From Amphiura filiformis (taxonomy: Eukaryota; Echinodermata; Ophiuroidea; Amphilepidida; Amphiuridae), in assembly GCF_039555335.1 (NCBI RefSeq), contig NC_092642.1, positions 17,823,208 through 17,887,207 on the forward strand: a stretch of 64,000 bases of DNA, in the 5' to 3' direction. Below are positions 10,660 through 62,407 of this stretch, piece by piece; the first letter of the stretch is position 1; each line of letters begins with the position of its first letter. The notes beneath the pieces are model-generated. The model had not been told where the DNA came from. It made no database searches and saw only the letters and a list, made by a program, of their open reading frames with translations. A program made the position numbers and the translations under genes.

Positions 10660-13245
10660 ATGTCATCATCTCATATGACCAAAGTAGCAGAGGTTTTTTT
10701 TTTAACTACCCTGTCGACAACAGATTGCTCAATGTTTAGGCGCTTCCTGATTGCTGTATTTCGGATTTTGTCCAGTCTTGTGACACCCAATATATTTCTT
10801 AGGCATATCATCTCAAAGACGAGAAGTCTGTCCTCATCGACTTTCTTCAATGTCCAGGTCTCAGTCCAGAGAGTAAATATTGAGAAGACGAGGACTTTGT
10901 ATAGTTCTTGGTGTGTGTTTGGATGTCCTTGTTTTGGAGTTTCTGAGCAGCCCCTGTTGCTTTTCCTATCCGGAGTTTGATATCATCTGTGCAGGATCCC
11001 TGTTGGTTGATTGTACCTCCCAGGTAGGTGAACCTTTCAACCTGAGCAAGTTGTTTCCCATTTATATTGATGTTGATTTACTTTGGTACTCTGCTGATGA
11101 TCTGGACTTCCGTTTTGGTGATGTTGATTTTTAGTCCAAATGCTGAACTACTGTGGTGAACAAAAAGTGTTTGGAGATCTTCTTTCTTCTCTGCAATAAG
11201 TGCAATATCATCAGCAAACCGTAGGCTGGTGATGATCTGGCCTTGGACAGTAACTCCTTTGTCGCTCTCGTGAAGGGGGGGGTATTGCATTGCTAGTTCC
11301 AGCAGGATGTTAAATAGTTGTGGAAATATTATACAGCCTTGACGCAATCTTACCAGTGTCTTGAACCAATCGCCATTTACTCTTACTGCGTTTGTGGATT
11401 TCTGATTTCTTCAGGAGTCTTATGATTTTGCTGGAGAAGCCGAAGAAGCTGAGTGCTTTCCAAAGCCCCTCTTACCACACGGAGTCGAAGGCTTTTTCAA
11501 AATCGAAGTGTGAAGAGCTGGTCGATGGTTGATCTCACAGGTCTGAATCCTGCTTGTGATTCAGAGAGAATTTGCTCTGTTTTATTCATGATACGCCTTT
11601 GGATGAGGGTTAAGACTTTACATGCGTGACTGAGAAGGCTGATTCCTCTGTAGTTGCCGCCAGTCCAACTTATCTTTCTTCTTGTAGATGTGTGTGATAA
11701 TCCCCCAGTCATCGGGAAAGGTTTCAGTGTCCCATATCCTCTTGCAGAATTGGTGGAAAGTTTCAATTCTTATGTCTCCTGCTGCCTTTATTTCCTCAGC
11801 GGTGATGCTGTCGTATCCTGGTGCCTTTCCTTCCGAGAGCTTCTTTATACCACTTGCCTATTATCTGGTTCAGTGTCATTATTTGGCATTTGGGGAACAC
11901 TGTTTGCACTGTTCTCGTTGATTGGATTATTTTTGTCATAAAGTTCTTGATAGTTTTCCTTCCATCTTGATTCCTCCATTTCAGTCAGGATTTCCCCCCT
12001 CCTTACTTTTGACGGTTTGCATCTTGGTTGATGCTTTCTTAATTGTGGAGTACACTTCCTTGGACTTTGCAGCCTGGTGTGCATTGTCAACTTTGATACA
12101 CAAAATCCTGTAGTCATTTATCATGGTATCCTTTCGTTTTTCCTTTTGATTTCTCTACCTGGACTCCCATGTCCACTATCCTTGTTCTGTTTGAACTTGG
12201 TGTTGCTGATGAATAAATCGTTCATTGCACAGAAGTTTAGTATTTTTTCACCTCGGTGATTTGATTCACCATATCCATGTTTCCCCAATACATTTTCATA
12301 TTGTGTCCAATCTGTTCGAACTTTTGCATTAAGATCTCCCATGACTATTTGAATGCTGCTTTTGGGAATCTTGTCTATGGTTCTTTGGAGAAGGTCATAG
12401 GATCCTTCTACCTTTTCCTCATGATCTGCAGTGTTTGGTGCATATACTTGCACTACTGTAATGCCTCCTGTTTAATTTAGAATTTTGCTGTTATAACCCT
12501 TGGTGAGATAGGGCTATATCCCATGAGTGCGTTTTGTGCCTTCTTGTTTAGAATGAGGGTTACTCCAGCACGATGAGCTGTGACATTCCCAAAGCATAAC
12601 ATTTTGTATCCTTCCGAGATTAATTCTCCAGAGTCTTACCAGTGGGTTTCGGAGATTCCTAGAATTTGCCAATCAAATTTCTCCATTTGGTTTAGCAATA
12701 TCTCAAGATTGCTAGATTGGTGTAAAGTTCGAACATTCCACGTTCCTATATCAATCGTTGCTTTTGTAGCTAATAAAGCCATCCTGTTCAGTGGTCTATC
12801 AATTAATACTCCGCTAATTGGGGCTCGACTTGGTGCTAGTCCCGCTTTGGGAGGACCTTCAAATCTTCCGATTAGAGTTGCAGCATCATGCTGCACTACA
12901 GTAGGTAGGCCCATTGGTTGGACTGGTTGATGCAGAGTGCTGGAATTTCCTTTTATCATGAAACAGTTTCGCTCATAACTAGCTAGGCGGATGAGACAAT
13001 CCTCTCCTAGCCACCCTGGTCTGTCCGTCACCTACTGAACAAGTCAGTCGGCTCACAACCCCCACCGTCGAGAAGGTAGACCAAGACGTTTACCCATTAA
13101 CTCACAAGTCGGTCGTCCCCTCACTGTATATGCTACACTATGTGCTACTCTATATTCTACACTACATGCTACATGCAAGATGCTACCAGGGACGGTCTCC
13201 TCCTTGTTGTCCATCATAACAAGTATGATAAGAGAAAACAGGTTT
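10660..13245 (-). pseudogene. Decayed non-LTR retrotransposon (RTE-like LINE), EN and RT
   Basis: The minus strand carries, from high to low coordinates, an endonuclease start (GTWNVRTLHQ and ILGISETHW near 12640-12770), more endonuclease (QVYAPN and MGDLNAKV near 12330-12450), RT motifs (QAGFRPVRSTIDQLFTL near 11500-11570, then RFADDIALIAE near 11180-11220) and the post-RT tail (ETWTLKKVDEDRL, then LRNILGV near 10790-10860). Frames change several times, so it is dead. The combination is typical of RTE/'craniofacial development protein 2-like' endonuclease-RT ORFs. The stretch 13031-13245 is probably its 5' untranslated leader. Copy 2 has no equivalent. Confidence 0.8.
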
Positions 13246-13330
13246 TGTTACAGATCTACCTACCAAAAAAAAACCCAAAACCGAGTTTTTGTTTCCAATG
13301 TATATTATTCTGCTTTACTTTTTACACAGT

Positions 13331-14612
13331 CTTCTTCTTCTTTCGTGTCCTTACATCAAACTGTACTTATCCACTGAGAAACACACTTTTGTGCCCGTTG
13401 AGAAAATTGCGCCAGATCGTGTGTCGTCACAGGATCTTCCAAAAGCAGGCATTCCAGCCGATGCTGCATCGTCTGTGGCTCTTGTCCACAATCACACATG
13501 GTCGGGCCACTGATGTATCCCCATTTGTGAAGGGTATCCTTGCAAGGTACAACACCGGTTCGGAGGCGGTTAAGGCATCTCCAGTTTGCACAGACTTCGT
13601 TTGCTCCTGGAGGTAGTGATTCTGTGGGTTAAATCCCCATCTCAGTGGTGACTGCTTCAGATGAAAGCCTTTCTTTCCACATCTGGGTGCGAGCCTCTGA
13701 TGATGTTGTTTGCAGAGGGAGGGTGCTTGTGATGAAGCTTTTCCTTGACTTCAGCCGTCTGTATGGTGGTGTGTGGTTGAAGAGGGGGTGTCTTACGTCC
13801 GTGGTCTGTTTACGGCGTTCCTCTTTGCTTGCCACAGCTCTCCGGATGTCAGGTGGTGCGATACCTGCCAAGAGGTAGACCTTGTCCATGTTGGTAGGCC
13901 TTAGACATCATGTGATGGAGCGGCAGCTTGCGTTGAGTGCAGAGTCCAGCTTCCTAGCATGTGATGATATTTCCCAAGCAGGACATGCGTATTCCGCGGT
14001 GGAGAAACTCAAAGCCAGTGCTGTTGATCTGATGGTATCTGGGCAAGCACCCCATCTGGTGTTGGCAAGTTTGCGCAAGATGTTGTTGCGTGTGCTGACC
14101 TTGGCCTTGGTCTTCTCCACGTGGGCCTTGTAGGATAGGCATCGATCTAGTGTGACCCCTAGGTACACTGGGTTAGGGCAGAAAGGGAGCTTGGTACCAG
14201 ACCAGGTGATGTTCAACTGTCGCTTGGCTTCCTTGTTGATAAGGTGGAAGGTACAGGCCTGGGCCTTCCTGGGTTTGCGCGCAGTTGATTCTCGTCGTAG
14301 TACTCTCCTAGTCCAGTCAGTGTATCTGTCAGAGTGTCTTCAATCACCTCAAAGCTTGTACTCTGGCTGGTTACGCACAAGTCATCTGCATATATAAACC
14401 GCTTGGTTTGGCTGTCAACTGGCTGGTCGTTAGTATAGATGTTGTATAGCAGAGGAGCTAGGACCCTTCCCTGGGGGCATCCGTTTCGCTGTCTGCGCCA
14501 TCGGCTTCGCTTCCCTCCTAGTTCACCAAAGAACCTTCTGTTCTGGAGCAGGGTTTGTAGAAGCCTGGTGAGGTGAACATCCTTAGTCATCTCTAGCACT
14601 TTGGCGAGTAGC
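13331..14612 (-). mobile_element. 5'-truncated LINE with RT domain, copy 1 only
   Basis: The minus strand reads as the C-terminal half of a Jockey/CR1-type RT ORF. It shows NGCPQGRVLAPLLYNIYTND, the catalytic FIYADDL near 14390-14420, YLGVTLDR, and a C-terminal CDCGQEPQTMQHRLECL motif near 13440-13510. Frameshifts separate the pieces. The low-coordinate end (the LINE 3' end) is a GAA-type microsatellite. ACACAGT flanks both sides (13324-13330 and 14613-14619) and occurs once at the empty site in copy 2 (about 39822-39828), so the ends are exact and the insertion is specific to copy 1. Confidence 0.88.
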
Positions 14613-14619
14613 ACACAGT

Positions 14620-14825
14620 GTGTACCACAGACTAATGGTGGGTACACTTTCATCACACAAACTGCGCATGCATGCATCCCACGTGATCACAATCATGGCT
14701 ACCGGTCGGTGATCTTGTTGCCACGCGAGGGGCCCTAGGTTTGAATCCGGGGGGGGGTACCAAGTGACTTCTGTGTTTATCTTTCCTGCATCCAGGCCTA
14801 TTAAAGTACAATCCAAATACAGACA
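14620..14825. other. Short segment with tRNA-like B box
   Basis: Shared with 39830-40044 in copy 2. It includes GGTTTGAATCC followed by a G run, resembling a Pol III B box, and an upstream GGCTACCGGTCGG that could be a decayed A box. It may be a SINE relic. No gene is visible. Confidence 0.35.
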
Positions 14826-14903
14826 CTGAATAGATTCATCAGGTTTGAAGATAAATAAATATACGATTTCTTTAAAACAAAACCAAAATTTACTCACTAG
14901 CTT

Positions 14904-14940
14904 GACGGTTTCGCTTTTCATGGTCGAAAAGCATCATCAG
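14904..14940 (-). ncRNA. Inverted copy of the hammerhead-like motif
   Basis: Minus strand: CTGATGA (14940-14934), extra T, GCTTTTC/GAAAAGC stem, GAAAC and CGTC. It is identical in its core to 17642-17678 because the 5' end of the element carries an inverted copy of its 3' region. In this orientation it would be active only in an antisense transcript. Confidence 0.5.
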
Positions 14941-15104
14941 AATATTGATTGATGATCACTTCTTCCGGTTGGACGATTCCTGACCACAGAGGGTGTAGAA
15001 CTGTCACTCAGTAGCTACCGTCAAACTAGTGAGTAAATGTTGGTTTTGTTTAGAAGAAATCGTATATTTATTTATCTTCAAACCTGATGAATCTATTCAG
15101 TGAC

Positions 15105-17626
15105 TTGAGAACAACTTATGGACAAGAAACTGTCAAAAAAGTACGAGATTTAGAGAGTTTAGGCAAGAAGATCGCCTGACATAGGAATCACCTTGTGTTT
15201 ACACTCCGATGCAAGGATTTACATATTACACCTCGTAGTTTACAACTAAAACGTCCCATCAACACAACGAAAGCCAGGAATATTGTGGAAAAAGCGAGAC
15301 AACAACTAGTTCGCGAGCGTATCCGTATCATAAACAACAAATTTGATTCTTATAAGGAGGAAAAATCGCGAGCGGAGAATGCTTTGTTTACGCGGTTGCC
15401 ACAGGATTCGGATATAGCGAAACACGTGACCGATCATGTGACCAAAAATCGGAAAGTGAATTCTGCAAAACAAAATGCCGGCACGCACGAAAATTGGATC
15501 GGTTACAACAACATTATGTTCCAATTCAAAGGAGAAATACACCCAATAATGTGGAATTAGGAGGTGAGCATTTGAAGAAATGGGTGATTAACCTTTCCAA
15601 ACACAAACTCACGAAACCACAAGAGAGCATTCTGGCCAAAGGACTCAATTTCGCACCGTCACCGAGTAAGCTTCCTTACGAGGATTACATCATTGCCACA
15701 GAATTAGCATGCCGTAAGTTAAATAATAATAATGAAGCTACAGTACTTAGATCAGAAATGGCCGGCGTGTTACGTAGTTCAAAACCCCCCAAATCCAACA
15801 TCACGAGGGAAGAAAGACAAGCAATTAATGAGCTCAAAAATGAAAAGTCAGTGCTTGTACTTCCAGCTGACAAAGGTAAAGCTAGTGTCATTATGGATGT
15901 CCATGAATATGAGGAGAAATTATCTGAGATGCTTAATGATAAAAGAACATATGAAACCCTCGCCTCTGATCCTACACAACGCTATAAAAGAGAGTTAGTG
16001 GCTATATTAAGTAGGCTAAAGAAAGATGGTAAAATTAATAGATCTCAATATGACCTCCTTTTTCCGACAGCGGAAAACATCCCGAGGATTTATGGAACAC
16101 CTACGATCCACAAGCCTGGAAATAAAGCCAGACCCATAGTTGACTACACGGGTACTATCGCATATCAGACTTCCCGTGCTTTAGCAGACACCCTGTCACC
16201 TCTGGTTGGAGGTACAGAACATCACGTGCAAAACTCCAAACATTTAGCTGAGGGTTTAGCTGAGGTCATGATTGAAGAGGAGGAGATATTTAATTCTCAT
16301 GATGTAGTATCTCTGTTTACGAACACTCCAATTGAGCAAACCTTACAAGTTATAAAATCGCGCTTGGAGAATGACACTACGCTGAAAGAAAGAACCCTAC
16401 TCTCGGTTGACAAAGTTTTGGAGTTACTACAGTTTGTACTTACTACTACATATTTCCTTTTCCCCGGCACTATTTATAAGCAACGATTCGGTGCTGCGAT
16501 GGGTAGTCCCGTATCCCCAGTTGTAGCTAACCTCTACATGGAATTTTTAGAGCAAAAGGCCATAGCATCTGCCCCTCTCACATGTAAGCCACGGCTGTGG
16601 AAGAGATACGTGGACGATATATTGGAAATAGTGCAAAAAGATCAAGTAGACAATCTTACAGAGCACCTTAATCAGAGTGACCCCACTGAGAACATCAAAT
16701 TTACCTATGAGAAAGAGCACGAGGGTACCATACCGTTTTTGGACACATTAATTGTTCGTAAGCCAGATGGGTCAGTGAAGTTACTTGTATATAGAAAGGT
16801 CACACACACTGACCAGTACCTCAATTTTAATTCGCACCACCCTATCCACCAAAAACTTGGGGTGATCAGGACTCTATTTGATAGATTGAATTCCATCGTA
16901 ACTGGGGACGCGGATAAGAAACTGGAGGAAACTAAGATCAAAGAGGCCCTCGGCCGCTGTGGATATCCAAATTGGGCTTTTAAGCAAGTTAAAATGGATA
17001 AGAAACAGGCAAAGAAACCTAAAAAGAAAAAGGACACTGACATCCAAACGAAAGGACTAGTTGTCATTCCTTACGTGGAAGGGCTTGCGGAAAAAGCCAA
17101 TAGGATTTTCAGAAAGCATGGCATAGCCACAGCCGTGAAGCCAAACACTAACCTCTGCAAACTTCTAGTCCACCTCAAGGACAAGGTTGACCCCAATAAC
17201 AGCACGGATTGCGTCTATGAGATACCTTATACCAATTGTAACCACACTTATGTGGGTGAGACCGGAAGGAGGTTTGCAACGCGACTCAAAGAACATCAAA
17301 AAGAAACTATGAGGGTGGAAAAGACAAAGCAAAACTACACGCGTCAAACACGCAAACAGTCAGAAACTGAACAATCAAAATCGGATATTGCAGACCATGC
17401 AGTGCAACAGAACCACGTAATAGATTGGGACAATTCAAAAATCCTTAGCAAGGAGTGTAATGCAAATATAAGACGCATCAAGGAATCAATATGGATTCGT
17501 AGAAGAGGACCCAACGTCATGAACAGGGACGAGGGGGCACACTATCTAAGTCACGTATATGATCCTCTACTTAGTGACAGTTCTACACCCTCTGTGTTTC
17601 AGGAATCGTCCAACCGGAAGAAGTGA
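15105..17626 (+). pseudogene. Penelope-like RT/GIY-YIG ORF, disrupted
   Basis: The largest intact part (15494-17626, 710 codons in frame) has the family's VLPADKGKASVIMD motif, TIHKPGNKARPIVDYTG, MGSPVSPVVANLYME, the catalytic YVDD at residues 372-375 of this frame, IPFLDTL, and a GIY-YIG nuclease near 573-605 (YEIPY, then TYVGETGRRF). The N-terminal part lies in a different frame (about 15105-15560, including LRCKDLHITPRSLQL). One TGA at 15177 interrupts it, probably a CGA-to-TGA change, and a frameshift near 15490-15560 separates it from the main frame. RT and nuclease would act in target-primed integration. Otherwise the domains look well preserved, so the insertion is fairly young. Confidence 0.9.
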
Positions 17627-17641
17627 TCATCAATCAATATT

Positions 17642-17678
17642 CTGATGATGCTTTTCGACCATGAAAAGCGAAACCGTC
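17642..17678 (+). ncRNA. Hammerhead-ribozyme-like motif in the Penelope 3' end
   Basis: CTGATGA (17642-17648), one extra T, a 7-bp stem GCTTTTC/GAAAAGC with a 6-base loop, then GAAA (17670-17673), C, C and GTC (17676-17678). This is the hammerhead core order, with a minimal stem III (AC/GU) and GUC as the expected cleavage triplet. A single extra base after CUGAUGA is known in some natural hammerheads. Type I hammerheads with very short stem III are described in Penelope-like elements. Stem I is not obvious in the flanks. An inverted copy of the same core lies on the minus strand at 14904-14940. Confidence 0.6.
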
Positions 17679-17752
17679 AAACTAGTGAGTAAATTTTGGT
17701 TTTGTTTAGAAGAAACCGTATATCCAAATACAGACAGTAAAATGCTCTTTAA

Positions 17753-18665
17753 AGGGCAGGTCTATAGCAAAAACAAGTTTATCTTTATTCGAAGAGAATA
17801 ATTATTACATCACAAGTTGACACTTGTTGCAATTTTTTTGTGCGTATTTCTCCTGAAAAAGGAGAAATTGTGTGGGTAAAGTTCAGCCTCGTACGTGTTC
17901 TTCCCCCGTTTGAAGCGTACGTGTTCTCCCCCGTTTGACTGATGACGTAGGTAAATGAAGCGGACACTTTATCGTGCTCTCATCATACAATCACAATCAC
18001 TTTGACAAGTTTGACATTATCAACAATGAGTTGTACTATCACTTACCATAACAATGCTGCATAACAATATGCACGCTATTGTTCTATTTCGGGAACAAAG
18101 CCCACACAGTAATTGTTACTATGCATTTGCTTTGTAATATTTCATCCAACTGAAACTATAGCGTTGCAATATACAGGGAAATCAGATACATGAGTTTGTG
18201 GACTAACACGGTTTATATGCTAGTCTCAGATGAAATTCTAAGCTGAAATTATGTATTTATTTTTTAGGCCTAATATTGCTCATGATATTGATATACATAT
18301 GAATTGTAATATCACAATTGTCTAATATATAAAAAAGAAGCGGCTGATTTTATCCATATGTTTAAAAACCATGAAATTTGTAATACTTAATTTGGAATTT
18401 TTTTCTGTGAACAGCAACAGTATACGTTCTGTCCATTGAGAGCGTTTATATAGTCCCTTTTCTCACAGCGGGCACATCTCATTTCATGACGTCACCGGTT
18501 TTCTATGCCAAATCTGTCTCGTTCGAAGGAACTCACCGCTTAAGTTGGTTTTTGCGGAATATCAATTTTAAACGTCTTATTTTCTCATAAAAGGAGTCAT
18601 TTTCATTGTCCTCATAATATTAGCTTGCCAATGATATGATGTTGTTTTTGGTATAGACCTGCCCT
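17753..18665. mobile_element. TTAA-flanked TIR element (913 bp), copy 1 only
   Basis: TTAA at 17749-17752 and 18666-18669 flanks an element starting AGGGCAGGTCTATA and ending with the inverse (GTATAGACCTGCCCT); the inverted ends reach about 28 bp. The empty site in copy 2 reads TTCTTTAAATAAC (about 40056-40068), with a single TTAA. TTAA targeting points to the piggyBac-like group. No transposase is present, so the element is non-autonomous. The interior has no supported gene. Confidence 0.88.
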
Positions 18666-19809
18666 TTAAATAACATAATTTAGTACCTACAAACTCATTG
18701 TACAATTTATAATGACATGAATACATTAGGACATCTCGAATGTACACATCGCTTATCGAATGATTTCATAAATGTAAATTGTATGGTGTTTCAATACTTT
18801 GTGCAAGTCAATTTATCCCATTAAATGTATTCTTTGTTTTTGCTGCTTCTATTAAGGCAAATATCAATTAATCAATATGCTATTAACGTTCATTAAACAA
18901 ACCGGTACTACAGTTAATAGACCCACCACTAATTGGAACAAAATCCATTTTACAGGCACCTATCTATATTATACCAAAAGATCACAGAAAAAAATAACAA
19001 AAATCCAAGTAGTAGAACAGTGCCTCAACATTTCGTCAAATGTTGTTTAAAAGCACACCAATGTATTTCCCTTGTCATAAGGATTCAGAAAAAGTATAGT
19101 TTGATATATCTCCGACGCACAATTCTTGACTTGCATGGGAAAAGATCAAAAGTTAAAATTCCACAGGGGGGAAATGGACATCAATTTGGAGTTGCGTTTT
19201 TCGTAAAAATAAAGATGTTATCACAAAAAGTGTCGAAAGTGAATAGTATCAATCTTTATTTTGTCTTTTACATTTTTTTTTCTGTTTTTAGGTCATTTTC
19301 GGGACAAATTTACATTTTTTGTAATTTTGTCAATTTCAAAATGTCACAGTTAAACTTCCTTTGGCAGGGTGTGGTGCATCCAGATGTGATTTTATCTCGT
19401 CCTCTTCTGATTGTTATATTTTGTACAGATTTCCGTTATGAAATAATTTGCGTAGCATTGACATTTTAACAGTAATTTCGAAAGTCCAATTTTAATTTTG
19501 AGAATTACGTATGGAAATTTTAGAAGAGTGTGTATGTTTTACTTAAAATATGATTTGTTTCATATCAAATTTTGAAAAGGCTTTGGAATCTGTTTCGTTT
19601 GATTTATCAGTTATTTGAAGCATGTAGTACAATTTGTGGCAAATCAATATATAAACTAGAGAAATCTGTTCCAACTGACCAGCAGTAGACAATTGCCACA
19701 AAAAAGTGTCTTAACTTTGGTAAGCTTGGCGTCTGTGATATATCAAGGCATGCACCACTTTATTAAACCATTGAAAACAAGCAATCCATTAAAACACAAA
19801 TCACTTTAT

Positions 19810-19955
19810 ACACGTGTTAAAAAACTTTATTATTTTTATTTTGCTGAATTGTTTACATGTGTTTTGTTTTCAATATATTGATACACGTGTTAAAAAAACT
19901 TTATTATTTTTATTTTGCTGAATTGTTTACATGTGTTTTTTTTTATTGAATGTTA
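19810..19955. repeat. Tandem duplication, 73 bp x 2
   Basis: Units at 19810 and 19883 share ACACGTGTTAAA, a TTTATTATTTTTATTTTGC stretch and GAATTGTTTACATGTGTTTT. The corresponding stretch of copy 2 (about 44785-44830) holds one decayed unit, so the duplication or its loss followed the segmental duplication. Confidence 0.8.
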
Positions 19956-20469
19956 ACGATCAACATGTGTTGATTGAGTCTTAAATCTTGTTAATATATT
20001 GCAATATCTAAAACAATAAGCACTTATCAAACGTCAATTATAACAGACTCAGACAAAACGAATTAGTGATAATATATTGCTATTCTGCTTTACAATGTGC
20101 ATTTGAGGTGCTAGAATTTACTGATAGTGTGCTATACAAGCTCTACCAAGTTCAATTGTATACATCAGTTTCCAATAATGGATTGAACATCCTGATACAA
20201 GATTATATCAACCCTATATGGAAGATGTATTTTAAGAAACTTATAGGTATCAAATCATTTTAATATAGCCTGCACTTTTTATCATACATTATTTATAAGT
20301 TTGCAAAGATTGCAAAATTAAATCATCAAGATTATTCATCAAGACAGTAATTCAATAAAATAATATATTTACACGGTGACAACAAGAATTTATGTTCAAT
20401 CTGACTTTGTGAGGACGATAGAGTTTCAGTATGAGACTATACTGGCGTAATTGATATGGAACGTATGTA

Positions 20470-22189
20470 CAGGGTGAGTAAAAAAAAATGCAATAGAGCA
20501 AAGAATCGATATTTATGTAAGAACCAAGTTGAAATTTCCCATTATTGAAGGTTTCTATAAATGCCACACTCAATAGTCACCGTGTGAAAAAATGAAGTGC
20601 CTCGCTTCTACCGTTTAATTTTATGAGTCTTTTTGCTCCGATACCCAAATTCATTATTTGTCCACGAGATACCGTGTATTTTGAATGTAGCACACAATGC
20701 ACGATAAATGCACCAGCTCTGAAACTGACTTTAATTTAAAGGTCCGTAACCCGATCGACAGCATCATCCCCCCGATTTTTTTCATTGTTGATGAGGTTTT
20801 GGTATCACATAATAGATACTATTTTTCTCATTTACTATCCTGAAATTTGACGCTCCAAGTCGATGTATTTCCGGAGAAATCATGAATCACAGCGGTTTTT
20901 ACAGGTTACCAGTTTGTAAACAATAAAAATTTCTTCGGATCATGGGAAGAGAAAAAAGCGAACTACGCTAAGTGTAGTCTCGCGGCCAGACTGTATGTGG
21001 CTATCACGAGGATCGACGAGTGTCAGACCGACGCAAACTGGCTGTGTAGGAGACTACGCTAAGTGCTGAGGAGACGGTCCGCCGTATATAATTAAAACAA
21101 TTCCTTGATTATTTCAGTTGATGAAATAGCTCAATTGGCTAGCGCGCCGTTCTTTTACCCGAGAGGTACCCGGTTCAAAACCCGGTATCGGAAGGTTTTT
21201 TTCCTCTCCATTTTTAACCCAAACTTTTTAAATATTCATTTGAAATGTACATATTGCAAGGGGAAATATATTTTGTTTCCTTTTTTTTGAAACGGTACGA
21301 AAAAACAAAAAAAAACAAATATTTTCCGTTCAATACGGGCCGGGCATTGCAGCATGTCAGCATTCGTCATACGAACGGGAATTGTTGTTGTTGCATGCCT
21401 ACCCAGAATGCAATTCACGTATACAAGGTATTGGATTGCAAATTTGGCTATTTATTCACATTTACGCTGAAAATGCTCTCGATGTTTCACAAAGCAGCAT
21501 AAAGGGGGAGATATTTGATATTATTATGTAATTTTAAAGACAATCCATATCCAAAACCAATAGGGTTACCCCCTTTAAATAAGGTTAATTTTTGCGTTAT
21601 TTTTTATTTCTTTTTTTTCTGTTCAAACAAACTTTCTAACATTTCTTTAAGTCCTTCATTATACCTCACTCAACTCCAACTCCATTTTTTATAATCCCAA
21701 TATGTCCAACTTACTGGATGTAATTCACTCCACTCCAATTTGCACGCATTTCATTTCGACATTTGAAAAACCCGCCTACAAATTTATATGGTTTGAAAGA
21801 GAATAAACATCTTTAAAATAAAGGGAAAATGAAAATAACAACAAATAATGTTTCTGCTCCTTAAACAAGACCAATGGCAATAACACTTTGGGTGCTCCAT
21901 TTTATTTCAATGCCAATGAGGTTAAGAAACTGGCAGTTGTTCCAAATCTACCATACACAGAGTGGGCTGACAATCAAATTTTAGGTGTCTCTTGGACAAA
22001 CATTAAAATTGGGTATCGCTATAAAATATGTCATAAAAACAAAACGGTAAATGCTAATTCCTTGTTTTTTTCACACAATATCACTCATTGATATGTTATT
22101 TATAAAATGTTTTAAAACCTAAATGGTTCAACTCGGTTCTTAAATAAAAATGGATTCATTTCTCTATTGCACTTTTTTTACTCACCCTG
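20470..22189. mobile_element. TA-flanked TIR element (1.72 kb) with internal tRNA-like unit, copy 1 only
   Basis: TA at 20468-20469 and 22190-22191 flanks long inverted ends (about 60 bp with mismatches) starting CAGGGTGAGTAAAAAAA. Copy 2 has an empty site with one TA (about 45028-45033, GTATGTATCTGG). The TA target and CAGGGTG ends suggest the Tc1/mariner group (inference). No transposase is recognisable. It carries a Pol III-type tRNA-like unit at 21120-21202. A deletion relative lies at 26277-26625 and another end at 53071-53265. Confidence 0.85.
21120..21202 (+). tRNA. Degenerate tRNA-like unit inside the TA element
   Basis: An A box (TAGCTCAATTGG), a B box (GGTTCAAAACC) at tRNA spacing, and a T7 terminator at about 21196-21202. 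The T stem has one mismatch and the acceptor and anticodon stems pair poorly, so it is unlikely to be a working tRNA. It is either a decayed tRNA gene or a SINE head captured by the transposon. Confidence 0.5.
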
Positions 22190-22239
22190 TATCTGAAATC
22201 GATGAGCTAATAGCTTCACCGACGACTTCATGCCATATT

Positions 22240-22805
22240 ACATATTTATGGTTTTTCTGAATGTTGCTTCTGTATTAGCTATCTGCGACACAACCTTCAC
22301 AAGTTTTCCATTAATGAAATAATAGGTCCATTTGTGTTTACCAACACATCCGAATGATTCAGCAAATGCTCTTCTGTATCGCTCATTACTTACGTTATAC
22401 AAGATCGGATTTACTGCCGAATTCAAGAGCTTTACAACTCGACCTAACCAGAAGATAAACTTCTTCGTTTCTGCTGAATATATTCTCTCACTAACCAACC
22501 AATACTTGAAGTGATCGAAATTGACCTATTCAATGCTGATTTCATTCAAAATCAGCATTTTAGTAATTTGATTTCTGGCACGAAGCATTGCATGCTGTCA
22601 TCTGCTTTTCAGAGCCACATTCTCTTGTGAGTCCGGACCTTGCACTAAACGCGTATTTAATTCTGTATGTATGACGAAAAGATCACTGCCAGTGCAAACT
22701 GGGCAAAGTTAATTGCAGCCAATACCATGAACACTATGTGTTCACCTTGCAGACGATGCAACTTGTCGCCCCATTTTGAAATATGGAGTTGTTAGACCAA
22801 TATAT
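22240..22805 (-). pseudogene. GPCR pseudogene split by a LINE (copy 1), 3' part
   Basis: The minus strand matches TM5 to the C-tail of the receptors (LLNSAVNPILYNVSNERYRRAF at 22340-22420), with deletions in the TM6 region. Homology ends at about 22805, where a LINE endonuclease fragment begins. A short remnant of the receptor N-terminus (the SFRRRS-like EED region and the ATG flank) resumes at 23735-23812. The same arrangement occurs in copy 2 at 46740-48230, so the interruption predates the segmental duplication. Confidence 0.8.
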
Positions 22806-26112: not shown

Positions 26113-26276
26113 TAAAAATGCTTTGTTTAAACTACATCGGTACCTGAGTCAGTTCCACACAAGCCTGTTGATCTTCCACAGGGATAAATTTTAATGAACA
26201 CTTTAGACAGCTCCATTTGAATTACATACACACTCTGAGAACGTGGTGTGTATTAAGGTATAAACAAACATAATAC

Positions 26277-29715: not shown

Positions 29716-29718
29716 TAC

Positions 29719-53006: not shown

Positions 53007-53070
53007 GAAAGATTCAACCTAACACAGAACGTGGTGTGTGAAGGTATAAACAAACATACATACAGAGTGA

Positions 53071-53265
53071 GTTAAAAAAAAAGGGCAATAGGGCAAATAA
53101 TTTGATATTTACGTGAGATAGTTACTATTACTATTGTTGAAAGTTTTTATAAATGCCGCCCTCAATAGTCACGTTTTATAAAAAAAAAATTAAGTGAAAC
53201 GCAACTACCGTTTAATTTTTATTTTATTTTTTACTGCGCTGTCCAATTTAATTGTATTTTGAATG
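53071..53265. mobile_element. End of a 20470-type TA element (copy 2)
   Basis: CAGAGTGAGTTAAAAAAAAA and the following ~190 bp match 26277-26470 and the left end of 20470-22189. After about 53265 the sequence differs from copy 1. From 53266 to 53963 I see no gene. Confidence 0.6.
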
Positions 53266-53963
53266 ATGATTGTCAAATTATTCATCTTGAGGGTAAATTT
53301 TGGTCTAGAAAATTTCTGACCAGTTCGATGTATTGTATCAGGCAAACTTAAATCTTGGCGAGTCACGTGGTTTCTTTTATTTTTAACTTATTTCTGTTAA
53401 TTATTTAATTGAATAACATCAAATTATTTATTTAAACTACTAAACATGTAATATTTATCTAAATTCAGGTGTATTTTGAGCATTTACAACCCATTTTCTA
53501 AAACATTTTTTCATTATTCACCAAATCAGTGGTAGATTTCAGTTATCTGGAGTGTTTTGACGTGCTGAACACGATAGATTCGCCCAAGGTACAAATTAAA
53601 AAAAACAAATGTTTGTTTTACGGTTATGACGGGGCTCATTCTAAAAGTTATTCAGACCTTAAATTTTAATGTGGCTGACGCAATCATTATTATTATTATC
53701 TAATTAAAAGAATGGGTCTACATGGACTCGTTATATACAAAATGTTTACATAAAGTGATGTAATCATCGAGTTGGTATAATTATGTGTCACGGGGTTGTC
53801 AATTAAAGCATGGTCGTAAAATCGATTCAATCGATATTTGGTCAACGGTGGTATCCGAGCGGTGTATAAAATTCAGCGGAGCCTGGCAGAGGCTTTTATG
53901 GGTTTGGGCTTTGCTAAAAGCCGGGTACCTCTTCGCTACGATCCCTCATTTTAGTTGGGCCAA

Positions 53964-54250
53964 AAACCTCAATTCCGTGACCATTCTCTGGGTAGTAAGG
54001 TTTGACGATTGATTTGACTTCTATGAACTATTTAGAAAAAAGTGGCCCCCATTTCCTTCGCAAAATCCCGAGGGACTAGAGGCCAAAATCCAAAATGGCC
54101 GCCGCCGCCAGTTTGAACCAGAGCACCTATAATCATGTACAAAGACACTTTTTCGGGTATATCGAGCACAAGGATTCCAATTTTGACATTAGTTTGATAT
54201 TACGGCATCATTTTCACCCAGAAATCTAAGATGGCCGCCAAATGATTTCT
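53964..54250. repeat. Right arm of the palindromic satellite-like block (copy 2)
   Basis: It corresponds to 27527-27830, including AAATGGCCGCCGCCGCC and CCAGAAATCTAAGATGGCCG. The left arm and direct units of copy 1 are absent, so copy 2 cannot form the palindrome. Confidence 0.8.
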
Positions 54251-54851
54251 TCACACCATTATATAAGAAACTGAAATGAAACCCGAATCTCCCTGATACA
54301 AATGTTAAGTTTTTAACAAAAGGTAGAAGATATCAATATCTTGTCAGTCAAGAGGTTAGGCAGGATAATAGGAAACCACGTGACCAACACCAAAACAAAC
54401 CAAAACTAAAACTTAATATTTGAAATGAGGCAATGTGTTATCGAAGACAGCGACGCTTGGCTGAGCTCAGTAAACCATGATAGTTGTCCTCTAAATAAAT
54501 CGCTCTTCATCCATCTTATAATTATTACTTATACAATAAGGGTCATTGTATTTCTTTAAGTATAAATAGTTGGTCTATGACTCTTATGACGTGACGATAA
54601 TGGTTTATTATAAAATTTAAGGGCTCACTAATCGGCAGGTTTAAAGTACATGCGTTTTCCCTAAATTTGATATTTTTGGTGATATTTCCAGAAAGCGACA
54701 AGCCAAAGACAAATGTTTGGGCATATACTTTGTTATTTTAATACCGCGCTTTTACGCATACCTACGCTACCATTAGTTTGGGTGATTTGCTGATATATAT
54801 TTTGGGACTGAATTTTGGCGTTCAATGCGTTTTAAGCTTAAGCTTACCATG

Positions 54852-55827
54852 TGTTATGGTCCCCAAAATGACCCAGGCCAAAATCACCTGCTTCGGGTTC
54901 ACGCAACACCAAACACACAAACACACTGTTTATTACTTAAAACACTTATGATTATTTATTTAGTGCAGTATGGCTATCAATCAATCCTAATACAATATTA
55001 CAACAATTACGTAAGATTACGATAAAGACTTCTTTATGCTATGGTTACTTAGCTAAGCCTGGAGATCTTGATTGGCTGGCTTTCTGATGAGATTCCGTTG
55101 ATGGTCTCAGTTCTTGATCCAAGATCCGGCAATGTCCGCGATCCTATCTACCACAATCTCAGTCCAAAGTCCTGATGACTATACTTTCACTAACCCTAGC
55201 TACTCTGCTAGTGTTCTCCAAATGGTCTTCTATGTTGACCTTAAGCTCCTCTCTCGGAGATCTCTTGAGCAAGCTTTCTGCTCCACTTGACAGACAGATA
55301 ACACTCTATGCTAGTCCAGCAAAATATCACAGTTCAGTGATGGAGATACTTCAGTCTATCACTTCTCTGAGTCGACAAACAATAAAGCACTATTGGCTTT
55401 CACTACCGCCTTTGGCGTAAAGAATTCTCTCCAACACGCACACACAAGAACCACGAACCGAAGTTTGAAGACTTCAATGGTAACTTTGTACCAATACTGG
55501 CTAACATAAGTTTCACAGAGTTTCCTCTTACACCTCAAGACTGCTGCTCAGTCATTCAACAGTCAATCAGACACTGTACCCTGATTTTTGGCACCGTGCC
55601 AGCACTTTATTACTGTGGTAATTAAGTAATCATGACCATTAGAGTATGATCTAAATGTTGCTAGAACTTTCTCCATATTACTATATATGAATTTCTTGAT
55701 CAATTTAATCATTAAAATTTTCCATATGAGTTCCAGAACATTCCATGAACAAACCAATAGGGATAAATATCAAAACAAGTGTTTTAATTATATAAATATT
55801 ATGAATCATTTTGGGGGGCACATAACA
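54852..55827. mobile_element. LTR-like or TIR element (976 bp), copy 2 only
   Basis: It is flanked by CATG (54848-54851 and 55828-55831), with ends TGTTATG and CATAACA. Copy 1 has a single CATG at 28410-28413. TG..CA termini, a 4-bp duplication and ~1 kb length suit a solo LTR. The inverted similarity continues about 20 bp inward (CCCCAAAATGA with TCATTTTGGGG), which could instead indicate a TIR element. No coding content. Confidence 0.75.
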
Positions 55828-56414
55828 CATGTAATTAACGCTGATATATAAACATTCTCTTTGGTCGGCTACTAGCAAACAACAGAATGCAGATTGGATC
55901 AGCGTAAGTGTCGTATTCCTCTCGTGGATCTTTTAAACATATAATTACTTTAAAGTGAGTGTAACAATATCAAATTTTACATCTGAATACAGGGTATGTG
56001 GCTGCAAAGTGTAATTTTCAGCGGCGCAACAACATCTCAAAAAAATCCACTACTAGCGAATAATTATGTTTAATTTTATATTTCCCGCTTGCATGTATGG
56101 CTAAACTATACTTCTTTGAATACGTTGGTCATGTTGGTTGGCCATTATCAAACTTTTATCAAACCTGTACAGTGATTGGCACTTGCATTAGGTGCCTCTT
56201 TGATAGTTGATAATGCCCAGCCATTCAGCAAGTAGCATTGGGCAATGTCGATGTCATCTGCTAATCAGCAAAACTACCAGTTACCTATATTTCAGATGAC
56301 ATTTTAAAATGCTCAATGGCATCAGCCGCCAGCCGGATTATTTGCCAGGACATGCCAGAGAATCAGAAATGGCAAACAAAATTAATTGTAACTATATACT
56401 CCAATTCCATGTTC

Positions 56415-57125
56415 ACCTCAGATATCCTCACCTCACCTCACCTAGGCTGTATCATCCTCTGCAGTATGAAGTCCTCTTCAAGAATCTTCCATTTCTGTCT
56501 GTCTTGCTCATCCCTTGCTTAAGTGATGCCCTTGCCTATATGCTGTATAGTCATCTCGCCATCTTCGTCTTTGCCTTCCTCTTCTACGCTTTTCTGTTCT
56601 TGGTTGCCACTCAGTGACTCTTTTTGTCCATCTATTGTAATTTTTCTTGCCACATTAAAAGTACATGTCCTGTCCATCTCCATTTCGCTTCATCAATCCT
56701 TTCCATGATGTCTTTGACTCAGCTTTACTTCTTATGTCACTGTTCCTAATTCTATCTTGGATTGTTTAGCATGTGTCTTTCCATGGCTCGCTGTGTCGTC
56801 AGGAGTTTTTGTTCCAGATATTTAGTTGTCGACCAGGTTTCAACACCGTAAGTTATGGTGGGTAACACACATTGATTGTACATACGCCTCCTCGATGTCA
56901 TTGGTAGCTATTTATCGCAAATGGTGTCTTTGTATCTGCCAAAAACAACACCAGCCAGCCTTGGTGTTCAGTATAGACTTCCTCTCTTGTTTTGTCTTCC
57001 ATTTTGACTGTATTGTCCGGATACATGTAACTATCTACTTTCTCTATCGGTTCATTGTCAATTTCAATGGAATCTCTAGTGTCAAAGTTGGTCATGTATT
57101 TCGATCCATCTCAGGTGGTGCACGT
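56415..57125 (-). pseudogene. RTE-like LINE RT C-terminal fragment (copy 2)
   Basis: Counterpart of 28985-29715. The same KYMTNFDTRDSIEIDNEPIE motif lies on the minus strand near 57045-57100, and the post-RT tail follows toward 56520. Frames are broken. Shared by both copies, it predates the duplication. Confidence 0.78.
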
Positions 57126-57146
57126 ACTAACATTACAGGTACCTAG

Positions 57147-57240
57147 AAATTCTTGGCCGAGTGGTCTAAGGCGCTTGAATGAATTCTACTATTGTACGAT
57201 CATCGCTGGTTCAGAACCGTAATTATTGCTCGTTTTTTTC
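57147..57240 (+). tRNA. Ser/Leu-type tRNA-like sequence (copy 2)
   Basis: TTGGCCGAGTGGTCTAAGGCG is a good A-box region for a type II tRNA, followed by GGTTCAGAACC as a modified B box and a T7 run near 57234-57240. The T stem and acceptor do not pair well, so it is a pseudogene or SINE head. The copy 1 version at 29719-29820 is more decayed. Confidence 0.5.
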
Positions 57241-57269
57241 GTCTTCTTTTCTTATACCCTGTTTCAAAC

Positions 57270-57510
57270 ATATGATGTGATCAAGCAAAATCGGAACTTG
57301 AAAATATTAAGTTTTTAGTTTCTTATAGGATAGAAAATGCATTTACAAAGCTTGACTTTGCAGCAAAATCCATTGAAATTGAACAACCCGTTCCAAAGAT
57401 ATGAGCAGTCAGAGAGTTTCCAAAACAACTGCAAACAAAAGGAAATATATTGTTTGGCTATATCTCAAAATCAATATTTCCGAGTTCCGACTGATTTTGC
57501 CTGATTGCAT
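57270..57510. mobile_element. MITE family 1, copy c
   Basis: Counterpart of 29850-30088 at the same relative position. The inverted ends are slightly decayed (ATGATGTGATCAAGC and GCCTGATTGCAT). Confidence 0.75.
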
Positions 57511-59234
57511 TCTATTTCTTTAATTATTTCTTTATATTTTCTTTATTTTTTATTGTAACCAAAATTCCAAAGCAAGACAATAACACTTTTCTTATCCCTT
57601 ACACAATGGAAGCTACATTTCATCATGCATTACGGTCGCATATGAGTATTTATACCGACACTTTTCAATTTATTTACCCGTTTTTGAAATCAGTCCAAAT
57701 TTAATATAATGCCATTAAACCAATACATTTTTCATTCCGGCTCCTGCTGCCTGCTCAAGATGGAAAGGTTTGTATACAAAACAATTCTCTTACAAACGGC
57801 CTATGCACAGTCTCCACCTCGATACACATGAGCACACATTTTCGTCCAAGAGCTTCCAAGCAAGCAGTGAACTATCTCTACATAGCATCGTTAGAGCGGT
57901 GTGAGGTTCTAGCTAGAAAACAGGCCTCTGTGATTGGTTTTTGTCGAAACGCCAAGTGTTTCCTTCATCCAATCACATTTTATTTTATATCAAACGAAAG
58001 CTAACACTTCTCCCTAAAAACACTTTTCCCCATTTGGCCATTAGGTCAACAGCTAACACAATTCTAATGTTATAGCAAGACGAATGTGGTATATCTGTTG
58101 AAAACTACCTATCCAAGCACATTTTTGACCAAAATGTAGGTTTTAAAAGTATAAACCTCAAGTGTTCCAAATCTTATGTCATTAAATGAAAGAGCGCGCT
58201 AATATTGTCCATATACTAGCCTCATTTTAATGAGCAATGACCAATTCTCTTTAAATTCCCAATCTTGTGCAAAAAGTTACTATTTTCGCCTGTTTTGTGA
58301 TACGGTTGTAAAAACTATATTTGCTAAAGATATATGAATAATCATCTTTACCAAGGCCGGCGCTAGAGTTTTGGCAGACCATATCCATCTACCTCTTGAT
58401 CATATGACTTCGAAACCGAAGACCTAATGTCAGGTGCCAGAGTTACAAGCAAAACGATTGTGTCTCTCTTTTACATTACACTTTCGTTTTTCTTCACAGT
58501 TGATTAGAGATAAGGGACTGGAAGATGAGGGTCATGTAGTGGGAAAAGAACGACACAATAAAACAGCCAAATACCAACCACTACATTTCTCATCTCCTAC
58601 CCCCCGCATCCATCGACATTTTACTCAACTCCTGGGAAATGCATAAAAATCATTATCTTACCATTTCTATCTCTTTACACTTGACTATATAGAAGCCATC
58701 CTTAAAAAACCTGGAGTAGCTATATATATAATGAATAAGATAATAAAAAAATGAATAACTGTGTACGCAGGTAAAATCACTAACGTTGATGTATTTGTGA
58801 TGCCTATTTACCAGCCTATATGTAAGCACATTTGCAAACATAATGTGTACTCGTACCTACGAGGCCCTGAAGTCCCTTGAGATGATATAAATAATGAGTA
58901 AGTAATAAATAATGAATAACTATGTACGCAGGTAAAATCATCGATAGTGAAGTATTCTTGTGTCTATACGTAAGCAAATTTGCAGACATCATTTTACCTA
59001 CTAGACCAAAACGTATCTCAATGATTTTGATATATAGCAGGTTTAAGTGGCAAATATTTCAAAATTATCCATTAAGATAAAATTACAGATAGCCTGAACA
59101 AAGCAATGGGAACACAAAACATAACAATACATCTATTTTAATTTTGTTGATTGAAACCAATTGAATGAATTTGCTCATATTAAATCTTGATATTGAATTA
59201 GTGTCAACACAGCCAAATTATTCTCCATATAATA

Positions 59235-60122
59235 GAGACATTGCGATTTTTCAAACGCAGCAAGTGGCACGTACGTTTTCGCGTACGTTTTCGCGTACGT
59301 TAATACGGTGTTGAATATGGCTAGTCTCTGTTCCAGACTGGATTGTGCTCATTCGTCACGATGGAGAACAAGAAAGTCAGAATAAAGACTATAATATTTG
59401 CTCAATATCTAACAGCTTCTACGCTAGGTCGATAGAGGGCATAATGATTGAAAAAATAACAGTGACCTGAGAATATGCCTAAATTGAAACAGACCGCTTT
59501 TGATTTTGATTAAAATTTTGACCTACATGCTGATTAAACCTAATTGTTTTTTGTGCTCCCCAAATATTATAGTTGCCCCAAAACATATATTTTGGTAGAT
59601 TAAAGATCACTACATACATACATCATGGCTTTACTTTCAAAATGAGACTTTTACGTCCTGAAAATTGGGCGCGATGCATGGACTTAGACATGAGGTAAAA
59701 TCAGCATATTTCAACGTAGCATCTGCGTTTTTATTCTACGTTGGAATCCAAAATGGAAATCACATTGTAATTTTTTTTTAACACAAAGTATCACACACAT
59801 TTCAATGGGCAATCTCTGCGTGTGAATATTGCGTTTAAATTTAGTCCATTTTTAACACATCGCTGTACCTTTAATATAATGATTTGTTACAAACAAAAAG
59901 GAACATAATAATAATTAGACTTTCCTTCATATGTTCATTATCTTTGACTGTTTTTAATATATTGGGAAATGGACAAATTTTGTAAATTTTATATCTACGT
60001 CGATTTCGCACGTGGAATATCTTCAAAAATAGCTAAATACGTGACCTCGCATCGATACAGGAGAGTGGTTTTGAATAGATCAACGTACGTCCGATGTCTA
60101 CGTTTGGAAATCGCAATGTCTC
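59235..60122. mobile_element. TA-flanked TIR element (888 bp), copy 2 only
   Basis: TA at 59233-59234 and 60123-60124. Ends GAGACATTGCGATTT and AAATCGCAATGTCTC. Subterminally both ends hold GTACGT-rich sequence, the left with three GTACGTTTTCGC-type repeats. Empty sites are seen at about 31857-31875 and, more exactly, at about 43215-43232 (CTCCATATAATAATTTG). No transposase is recognised; a reading frame at 59969-60259 crosses the right end and is not supported. Confidence 0.87.
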
Positions 60123-60459
60123 TAATATCTGAAAACTCAATTATCTATTCTTCTAACATCTATCTGAGGTGTGTGACAACTTCATGCATCACACATTATT
60201 ACCGAAATTTTGATATCAAAAGAAAGCACATATTTTATCATAACCCAAGCAAAGTTTAACGCCCAAGATATGTTTCGTTTAGCTGATGTGAAAAAAAAAA
60301 AGACGTAGAAAGCAGTAACCACCAGCAGAAGTATTATGTTGTTATACACGTGTTTCTCTCTCATATAAAAACTAATATTTTAATGGCATGCCTCAATGAA
60401 AGATAGAAAACAGAGTATAAAATAATCTGACCACCCACCTTTAAACCGACTATAAATAA

Positions 60460-61250
60460 ACAAGGGAAGATGCTTACGCATCATAACTGGAACATTCAAA
60501 CATTCAAACATTACAGACTAGCGCACGAGATCAAATTAATGATGCTTAATCGTATTCTTAATATATCAATATGCAGGGGAAAGAAGAATGACACATCGCA
60601 CACTAGCACAATTAAAATTGGCAAAGGTTTCTCAAACATACATATCATACTAGAAAGGTTTATAACCGCATGTTGCACGATTAAACATCAAGTTACAAAT
60701 GGAAACATGACATGCATAGGCAAATACACTAGAGTAAAAACTCCGGACAAACCTACCTGTGTGAGGACTTGAACCCCAGACCTCTCGCTTGCCGGGAGCG
60801 CGCGCTAACCACTGAGCTACACAGACTCTCCCTGATAAACAGGACTCAAGTCTGGTACTTATTGATATGAGCAAACAACACATTACATACCAGTGTGCGA
60901 GATCAATTAATGATACTTAACCGCCAGCCTAATATAATCATACAAACAAAGGAAGAGGCTTACGCATCATACACTGGAACATGGAAACATTCAAACATTA
61001 CAACAACTAGCGCACGAGATCAAATTATTGATGCCTCATCGTTATTCTTAATATACCAATATACAGGGAAAGAAGAATTACGCATCGCACACTAGAACAA
61101 TTAAACATGAATTTACAAATGGAAACATGACATGCATAGGCAGATATACCAGAGTAAAAAACTGGACTTGAATCCCAGACCTCTCGCTTGTCGGGCGAGC
61201 GCTCTAACCGCTGAGCTAAACAGACTGTTCTTAATAAACAGGACTCAAGT
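60460..61250 (-). mobile_element. Two tandem tRNA-derived SINE-like units (copy 2)
   Basis: Counterpart of 32735-33500, with tRNA-like heads at 60755-60826 and 61154-61225 on the minus strand and the same bodies. The first head again pairs well in acceptor and T arms; the second ends in a T run. They lie directly 3' of receptor 4. Confidence 0.7.
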
Positions 61251-61315
61251 CCGGTACTTCATACCATGATGTTACATATGAATGTTTTGGCTACGGACTA
61301 AAGTTGATTTGCTTT

Positions 61316-62407
61316 CTATGATCTAGATATCATAATATTTTCATTCCCATTTCGCGAAGAAGATCTCTTCTTTCTTTTATCAACACGCCTAAAAGCTTCT
61401 ACAAATGCTCTCCTGTATCGTTGGTTGCTTACGCTATACACGAGTGGATTTACTGCCGAATTTAACAGCCACATAACGCGACTAAACCAAAGGATTGTCG
61501 TCGCTGTTTTAGATTCAAACATTCTCTCACCAACCAACCAATACTTGAAATCATCGATATTGTATATTTCATTTGGGCCCCGACATATGAAGAAAATTAT
61601 TCCATTCAAAATTAACATTCTTCCAATTTGATTTCTGGTGCGAAGTATTGTCGTTTGCTTTTCAGAGCTGGTTTCCCCAGTGAGACCGGTCCTTGTACTA
61701 AGCGCGTAAATAATTCTGCCGTACATATATGAAGACAAGATCACTGCAAGAACAAACTGTACAAAGTCAATTGCAGCAAGAGTTGGCCAACACCATGAAC
61801 AATTTGTGACTGCCTTGCAGACAACGAATTTTGCCGCTATATTTTGAAATGTGGTGCTGTTAGACCAATCTATGCATATCGTTTCAGTTTCATAAAAATG
61901 GAGACACACAGAAGCCGAAACCAATGAAATCAACCATGCACTTATTGTCATTCGTACAGTCCAGGTTCTGCCTTTGAGCATTCGATGCGTTATCGGGTGA
62001 CATATTGCCAGATATCTTTCAAATGTGACGAGTGTTATTAAATACACAGATGCAAAATAACATAGGTATGTGATAAGCCAGACTAAAGCACAACCGAAGT
62101 GAAACGACGAAAAAGCAAATTCAATTGGAGTGTTGAAATAACTCCACATGAACCTTATTGTAGTTATAATTAGCAACGTTATATCGCTAACAGCAAGATT
62201 CGATAGGTAGAAGTTGGTAACAGTCCGCATTTCTGGCACGCGATATACAACAAATAAAAGTGCAGCATTTCCGAGAATGCCCAATCCTGCCACAATGGGT
62301 ATGATTACAAGGATGAAGATCTTCTTATAGATAGTGTAAAAGTACGGAACAGCTTCTTCTTCTGAAAGCAATATGTCGCAATCATCATCTGAATGAGTAG
62401 AATTCAT
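61316..62407 (-). CDS. Intact rhodopsin-class GPCR, receptor 4 (363 aa from the conserved start)
   Basis: Single-exon class A receptor. I use the conserved MNSTHS start (62407); an in-frame ATG lies ten codons upstream (62437). Landmarks: GILGN, NLAVSD, FERYLAICHPITHR, SAWLIS, the CKAVTNCSWCW loop cluster and NPLVYSVSNQRYRRAF. TM6 reads FFICRGP, putting arginine at the toggle position where other paralogues have leucine and most class A receptors tryptophan. Two residues before the TM3 cysteine are missing relative to its paralogues (SFHFGCALV versus SFHSGAGCALV), an in-frame 6-base loss. The tail has the KKRSSSRNGNENIMISRS motif. The copy 1 relative (33555-34293) is truncated and frameshifted. 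These odd residues may mean relaxed constraint. Confidence 0.9.
   Translation of the reverse strand: MNSTHSDDDCDILLSEEEAVPYFYTIYKKIFILVIIPIVAGLGILGNAALLFVVYRVPEMRTVTNFYLSNLAVSDITLLIITTIRFMWSYFNTPIEFAFSSFHFGCALVWLITYLCYFASVYLITLVTFERYLAICHPITHRMLKGRTWTVRMTISAWLISLVSASVCLHFYETETICIDWSNSTTFQNIAAKFVVCKAVTNCSWCWPTLAAIDFVQFVLAVILSSYMYGRIIYALSTRTGLTGETSSEKQTTILRTRNQIGRMLILNGIIFFICRGPNEIYNIDDFKYWLVGERMFESKTATTILWFSRVMWLLNSAVNPLVYSVSNQRYRRAFVEAFRRVDKRKKRSSSRNGNENIMISRS

Follow-up and report, generated by a model that had tools for sequence, protein, structure and literature searches.

Transposon insertions that distinguish the two copies of a probable segmental duplication in a receptor gene array of Amphiura filiformis

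To what extent can a single sequence record the arrival of the transposons that it carries? The question is raised by a stretch of 64,000 bases of the ophiuroid Amphiura filiformis (contig NC_092642.1, positions 17,823,208 to 17,887,207; 36.9% G+C, 0 N), hereafter the window, in which two long collinear segments, A and B, differ by large pieces of DNA. The observation is real. The best explanation, held with good confidence, is a true duplication of the segment inside an old array of seven-transmembrane (7TM) receptor genes, followed by eight to ten insertions of transposable elements in one copy or the other. Each copy shows the state of the other before the transposons landed; the process is an ordinary one and the locus a clean example of it. 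The observation is sound and unusually clean, and the interpretation first given to it, in an initial annotation made from the sequence alone, is right in outline, with the corrections described below.

Two collinear copies in an array of receptor genes

Comparison of the window with itself by BLAST gives collinear matches between ~14.6–34.3 kb and 39.8–62.1 kb. A global alignment blind to target duplications sets the edges at 13250/39757 and 34292/62060. Copy A (13250..34292, plus strand, 21,043 bp) and copy B (39757..62060, plus strand, 22,304 bp) are in direct orientation, their aligned blocks follow the same order throughout, mostly at 92–98% identity, and the identity over all aligned columns is 95.4%. 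Such long collinear copies of high identity, at two positions of one sequence, are the pattern of a segmental duplication. The initial annotation had placed the two collinear copies at 13245–34293 and 39758–62040; they are borne out, with edges correct within ~20 bases. A spacer of 5,464 bp (~5.5 kb; 34293..39756) separates them and carries the intact receptor gene R5 and a remnant of a receptor 3′ end.

The alignment has 11,179 aligned columns with 519 differences (264 transitions and 255 transversions; p = 0.046, or 4.6%), excluding 17876–17881 and 26594–27523, where the alignment is accidental. The Kimura two-parameter (K2P) distance is 0.048 for all these columns and 0.049 when receptor-like DNA is set aside. 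Unaligned DNA makes up roughly half of either copy (A, 9,799 of 21,043 bases; B, 11,144 of 22,304).

Both copies sit in an array of genes for rhodopsin-type 7TM receptors in which four frames are intact, all on the minus strand and all matching 7tm_1. They are R1 (8124..9230) in the left flank of A, R5 (34595..35776) in the spacer, R3b (48411..49490), coding a 359-aa protein, and R4b (61316..62437; 373 aa), which extends past the right edge of B. Further receptor copies are cut or decayed, among them the minus-strand counterparts of the last two in A: R3a (24000..25075) has a frame broken near codon 124, and R4a (33558..34292), whose frame is broken as well, is truncated by the right edge of A. 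Among the best 60 of 501 PDB matches of R3b, the only receptor searched there, neuromedin-U, TRH and opioid-family receptors come nearest. R3a and R3b are 98.1% alike and R4a and R4b 95.4%, with the other receptor pairs at 83.7–87.0%; since the A/B pairs are closer than the others, the array is older and the A/B event came later. The codons of the R3 pair show 6 silent and 12 replacement differences, those of the R4 pair (247 codons) 9 silent, 23 replacement and one stop. A long interspersed nuclear element (LINE) had been reported inside a receptor in both copies; receptor residues 181–347 (R3b numbering) were recovered there by tblastn, and no credible other half of the receptor was found, which bears out only half of that claim.

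Older and more diverged array units lie, in the same general order, at 42075–44184, 31037–33894 and 5812–8877. To judge from these units, several earlier rounds of duplication underlie the locus.

Inserted elements and their empty sites

Fifteen gaps of at least 300 bp interrupt the alignment, 8 with extra DNA in A and 7 with extra DNA in B. Two of them (608 and 577 bp) form one compound site, which leaves 13 discrete differences, and 10 of these 13 are elements with an exactly duplicated target.

The first element found in A only is a minus-strand LINE piece with a GAA-type tail (13331..14612), flanked by ACACAGT at 13324–13330 and 14613–14619. It has the features of a non-long-terminal-repeat element, namely a match to RVT_1 (E = 4.4e-9), a 3′ tail and a target duplication. 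Among ten LINE-like frames scanned, 4 matched RVT_1 or endonuclease and 6 had no match. A Penelope-like element with reverse transcriptase (RT) and GIY-YIG domains follows on the plus strand (14826..17721), between two copies of the 15-bp target ATCCAAATACAGACA (14811–14825 and 17722–17736). Its RT matches RVT_1 with E = 2.2e-4 and 21.4 bits, below the Pfam cut-off of 29.6, and is accompanied by what we take to be supporting RT motifs; the GIY-YIG domain, located carboxyl-terminal to the RT, gives E = 0.0019 and 18.9 bits, below the cut-off of 22.6. The 3′ end of the element recurs as an inverted copy at 14859–15014 and as a short direct copy at 15017–15067. Direct and inverted end copies combined with a short target duplication are the pattern of Penelope-like elements. 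An overlapping frame (15180–15557) resembles what is presumably the usual Penelope amino terminus, so the reading frame of the element is probably broken near this position. The Penelope-like frame had no match in the PDB at E 0.01, and neither this frame nor R3b found relatives in scans of viral_contigs. A Pfam scan of ten further frames gave, besides the weak GIY-YIG match, four families at E 0.015–0.066, which were taken as chance.

The third element of A is bounded by terminal inverted repeats (TIRs) with AGGGCAGGTCTATA ends (17753..18665) and lies between TTAA copies at 17749–17752 and 18666–18669. It contains no open frame of at least 85 aa. A 0.1-kb piece of it has an 81% relative on the opposite strand of the spacer (38805–38903). 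Three further TIR elements of A have duplicated TA targets. The longest (1,720 bp, CAGGGTGAGTAAAA ends, 20470..22189) has TA at 20468–20469 and 22190–22191; an older relative is found in DNA shared by the two copies (26274–26620; 53061–53219; 72–82% over short pieces), so that its family probably moved both before and after the A/B split. The other two are short, with 416 bp (25697..26112) and 523 bp (32200..32722, CAGTAAGCCAAAA ends).

Four elements are found in B only. The AATT element (40567..41378) is of foldback type, with 32-base inverted ends and internal 262-nt arms that are 92% complementary, and has the target duplication AATT. The hAT-like element (45106..46699) has CAGTGTTG ends and the 8-bp target duplication GAAGGTTG; CCGAGT-rich arrays are found just inside both of its ends (45118–45236 and 46588–46664). 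A TIR element with TGTTATG ends (54852..55827) lies between copies of CATG, and the fourth TA element, a TIR element of 888 bp with GAGACATTGCGATTT ends, is at 59235..60122.

The ten target duplications listed in the initial annotation (ACACAGT, a 15-mer, TTAA, four times TA, AATT, an 8-mer and CATG) are all exact in the filled copy, and the inverted ends of the eight DNA elements begin exactly at the target duplication. Among 20,000 random intervals per element, a duplication that long with inverted ends of equal or better quality turned up between 0 and 2 times; for the LINE and the Penelope-like element, which have no inverted ends, this control concerns the duplication alone. When the edges are those of the alignment or of the first guess, the Penelope-like element is unsupported (duplication of 1 base) and the duplication alone gives no or weak support for several DNA elements, whose inverted ends already stood out at these edges.

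The pairwise alignment proposed as a check in the annotation shows that for eight of the ten elements the other copy has the predicted empty site, free of indels where the flanks meet. The AATT site is among the exact joins, with one single-base indel 18 bases away, and the comparison for the Penelope-like element covers 47 of 60 bases, the TTAA element starting just to the right. The two inexact empty sites are those of the hAT-like element, 6 bases short, and of the 888-bp TA element, 2 bases short. These are probable rather than proved insertions, whose empty sites would have been altered later. The ten elements share no detectable similarity with one another. The annotation had held that the mobility of several families is proved within one sequence, which is supported for eight elements and likely for two more, the hAT-like and the fourth TA element. 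The large differences are not all insertions: one of 2,777 bp is better read as a loss, and the 407-bp, 2,897-bp and compound ones come without duplicated targets.

The 2,777 bp in question (41951..44727, plus strand) are old array DNA present in B and missing from A. Five pieces of A (31037–31143, 31395–31501, 31497–31670, 31691–32068 and 33495–33894) match, collinearly and at 72–79%, pieces of this DNA that have the same order in B (42075–42176, 42260–42366, 42445–42613, 43026–43436 and 43801–44184). The region carries a receptor 3′ end, and GGCA is found at both ends of the piece missing from A. Since it is array DNA with a receptor 3′ end, loss from A explains it better than insertion into B, and it probably represents a deletion in A. 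A broader interpretation is that some of the differences are losses of DNA older than the duplication, excised or deleted from one copy. This region speaks for it, as do the 6 and 2 bases missing from the hAT-like and fourth TA sites. TTAA elements such as piggyBac are capable of precise excision, so that the TTAA empty site cannot tell insertion from excision. The eight exact, single-copy target sites without footprints speak for insertion, and to our knowledge no excision route exists for LINE and Penelope-like elements. Losses as the origin of some differences are accordingly given a low probability.

The 2,897 bp of extra DNA in B (50129..53025) feature perfect 43-nt inverted repeats (50131–50173 and 52964–53006) without target duplication and with 19 extra bases on the right; no relative was found elsewhere in the 64-kb window. 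Inside lies a transfer RNA (tRNA)-like stretch (51921–51993) that occurs only within this extra DNA of B, while two other tRNA-like stretches are paired between A and B (32973–33045/60754–60826 and 33401–33457/61162–61218). The tRNA-like stretches are probably short interspersed nuclear elements. The 407-bp difference (19868..20274, extra in A) is ragged and partly a 74-bp tandem repeat. At the compound site, 26461..27523 in A stands against 53267–53961 in B, with unrelated DNA and no target duplication. An Rfam match to MIR2646 at 27434–27681 was rejected (score 55.6 versus a gathering threshold of 245); it sits on an inverted repeat.

Paralogues, alleles or homogenised units

Evidence for insertion stands whether A and B are paralogues or alleles. 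A and B could be two alleles of one locus of a highly heterozygous animal, set in tandem by the assembler (a false heterotype duplication), in which case the insertions would be insertion polymorphisms between haplotypes. Alleles could plausibly diverge by ~5% and leave about half of either copy unaligned. There is also precedent: a false heterotype duplication adjacent to its partner has been described, with gaps between the copies among the usual signs, and one study attributes 4 to 16% of three earlier assemblies to false heterotype and other false duplications (PMC9516828). Such a gap is absent here (0 N between the copies or anywhere in the window). Alleles should, in addition, have common flanks. 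The DNA beyond either edge gives no match above about 85% in the flanks compared, of which the right flank of B has only 1.9 kb inside the window. On the left, matches of 82–83% are confined to a receptor, short pieces related to receptors and a stretch of 0.4 kb; on the right, the sole match is a paralogous receptor (85%). Likewise, the spacer matches neither the left flank of A nor the visible 1.9-kb right flank of B at more than about 85%, and R1 and R5 are 83.9% alike, inside the range of the other receptor pairs. The visible flanks do not continue at allelic identity, and a match of no more than about 85% is as expected if a sharply bounded segment was copied to a paralogous position. Had two haplotypes simply been joined, homology would have to break down at either edge, so that a duplication is favoured. 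It is also supported by R4, complete in B but truncated in A where the segment ends. A and B would accordingly be paralogues, and an allelic origin is regarded as improbable.

A head-to-tail junction at 34292/34293 was considered and rejected. R1 and R5 lie nearly equally far from A and B, respectively, but have the modest likeness given above, and the DNA between is mostly unmatched.

The divergence between the copies is uneven, with 4 to 47 differences per 500 columns of the alignment (22 full windows of 500 columns, the part-windows at the ends being dropped; chi-square 114, p = 8.5e-15). Non-coding DNA taken separately is uneven as well (17 full non-coding windows, p = 2.2e-9), and the low-divergence stretch around R3 (23206–24709) extends into it. 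This speaks for an alternative in which A and B are old array units homogenised by gene conversion or unequal crossing over and not copies of one recent duplication. In the same direction, R4a resembles R1 more than it resembles R4b in some windows (94 versus 86% in columns 400–500; 97–98 versus 94–95% in columns 500–650), and older array units occur elsewhere in the same order. A conversion tract of 21 kb with such sharp outer limits would be exceptional in length, however, and the insertions of both copies were not erased. Homogenisation as the origin of the two copies is hence considered unlikely; conversion as a cause of the uneven divergence is a fair guess rather than a demonstrated one. 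The last 93 bp of R4a (34200–34292) are 94.6% like R1, possibly a conversion tract.

The preferred reading, duplication followed by insertion, would start from a tandem array, already old, of genes for rhodopsin-type 7TM receptors, in which a segment of at least 21 kb was duplicated in direct orientation. The duplicated unit was possibly about 26.5 kb long (A plus spacer), the partner of the spacer then lying to the right of base 64000. A and B would have diverged to about 4.8% (K2P). After the split, A would have received six insertions (the LINE piece, the Penelope-like element, the TTAA element and three TA elements) and B between two and four, namely the AATT and the CATG element and, probably, the hAT-like element and the fourth TA element. 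Each would have duplicated its target, and small indels and some larger deletions would have removed older DNA.

Several points weigh against this reading. The copies are 5,464 bp apart, so the duplication is not a plain head-to-tail one, none of the junctions in the window points to a breakpoint mechanism, and the visible part of B's right flank is limited to 1.9 kb. The empty sites of the hAT-like and fourth TA elements are inexact. The uneven divergence means that one date cannot fit all of A and B, and conversion or several events may be mixed in it. Two alleles of a very polymorphic animal could also show 4.8% divergence. Note that the alternatives discussed here, alleles, homogenisation and losses, are not mutually exclusive.

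Other features lie outside the duplicated segments. A decayed minus-strand LINE with RVT_1 and endonuclease pieces (10674–13031) has its 5′ side near the left edge of A, and a degenerate TTAGGG-like tandem array (10301–10418) is found further to the left. Upstream of R1, at 9386–9585, are two neighbouring hairpin-like palindromes with GCCCTTGAACATGGATGAAGC. Two-copy tandem repeats of 166 and 149 bp, 93–94% alike, occur at 39009–39343 and 62718–63018.

Insertion load and comparison with known elements

Counting all ten elements, there is one insertion per 52 substitutions (10 per 519), or one per 65 when only the eight exact sites are counted. Inserted DNA, including the duplications, amounts to 7,782 of 21,043 bp in A (37%) and 4,288 of 22,304 bp in B (19%). 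A bolder reading, regarded as improbable, is that the AATT and CATG elements, both shown to be mobile by exact empty sites, belong to DNA-transposon families outside every described superfamily, and that turnover here, with one surviving insertion per 52 to 65 substitutions and post-split insertions making up as much as 37% (A) and 19% (B) of a copy, is fast enough to replace most intergenic DNA of this genome within a modest divergence. One sequence gives the boundaries, the target-site lengths and mostly the insertion polarity of eight to ten unrelated elements, several of them unnamed, without an outgroup. This helps in curating transposon libraries and allows insertion to be gauged against substitution at a single locus. 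It is also a warning that copies in this receptor cluster can differ by about half their length yet align at 95%.

Most of the ten can be likened to known kinds of element; no family is assigned to the AATT and the CATG element. The TTAA element has features taken as typical of non-autonomous piggyBac-type elements, a TTAA duplication and inverted ends matching over 24 bases. It differs from them in that neither a transposase nor an autonomous relative was seen within the window, and its AGGGCAGG ends were not matched to any named family. The 8-bp target duplication and the CAG-type ends of 45106–46699 are, by the same kind of comparison, those of hAT elements; the one frame scanned gave no transposase match. 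The four TA elements, by their TA target and inverted ends, are presumably of Tc1/mariner type, an assignment made from these two features alone, with CAGGGTG and CAGT ends in two of the four; the two frames scanned (one in the 1,720-bp and one in the 416-bp element) had no transposase match.

The Penelope-like element is similar to families of Adineta vaga described with an RT and GIY-YIG frame, direct and inverted pseudo-long-terminal-repeat (pLTR)-like end copies and a target duplication (PMC3846280). The duplication lengths given for these families in that account are 8, 9 and 10 bp, with none in some copies, unlike the 15 bp found here (PMC3846280). The CATG element shares TGTTA ends (TGTNR) and a 4-bp duplication with Ginger1/Ginger2, whose targets are described as CCGG or CCGT for Ginger1 and RTATAY for Ginger2, the latter with TIRs of 50–180 bp (PMC2836005). 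Membership in Ginger was rejected: the target is CATG, and the matched ends span about 13 bases versus the 40–270 or 50–180 stated in that description (PMC2836005).

A literature search on such use of duplicated segments found no papers, and absence from print is not claimed. The locus illustrates well a type of evidence that is already known and does not reveal a new type of system; its principle is familiar. As in the usual empty-site comparison between paralogous or allelic copies, a filled site with a duplicated target is set against a single-copy empty site; unlike in that comparison, the filled and the empty site are found together in one 64-kb sequence, which captures eight to ten unrelated elements in a single comparison.

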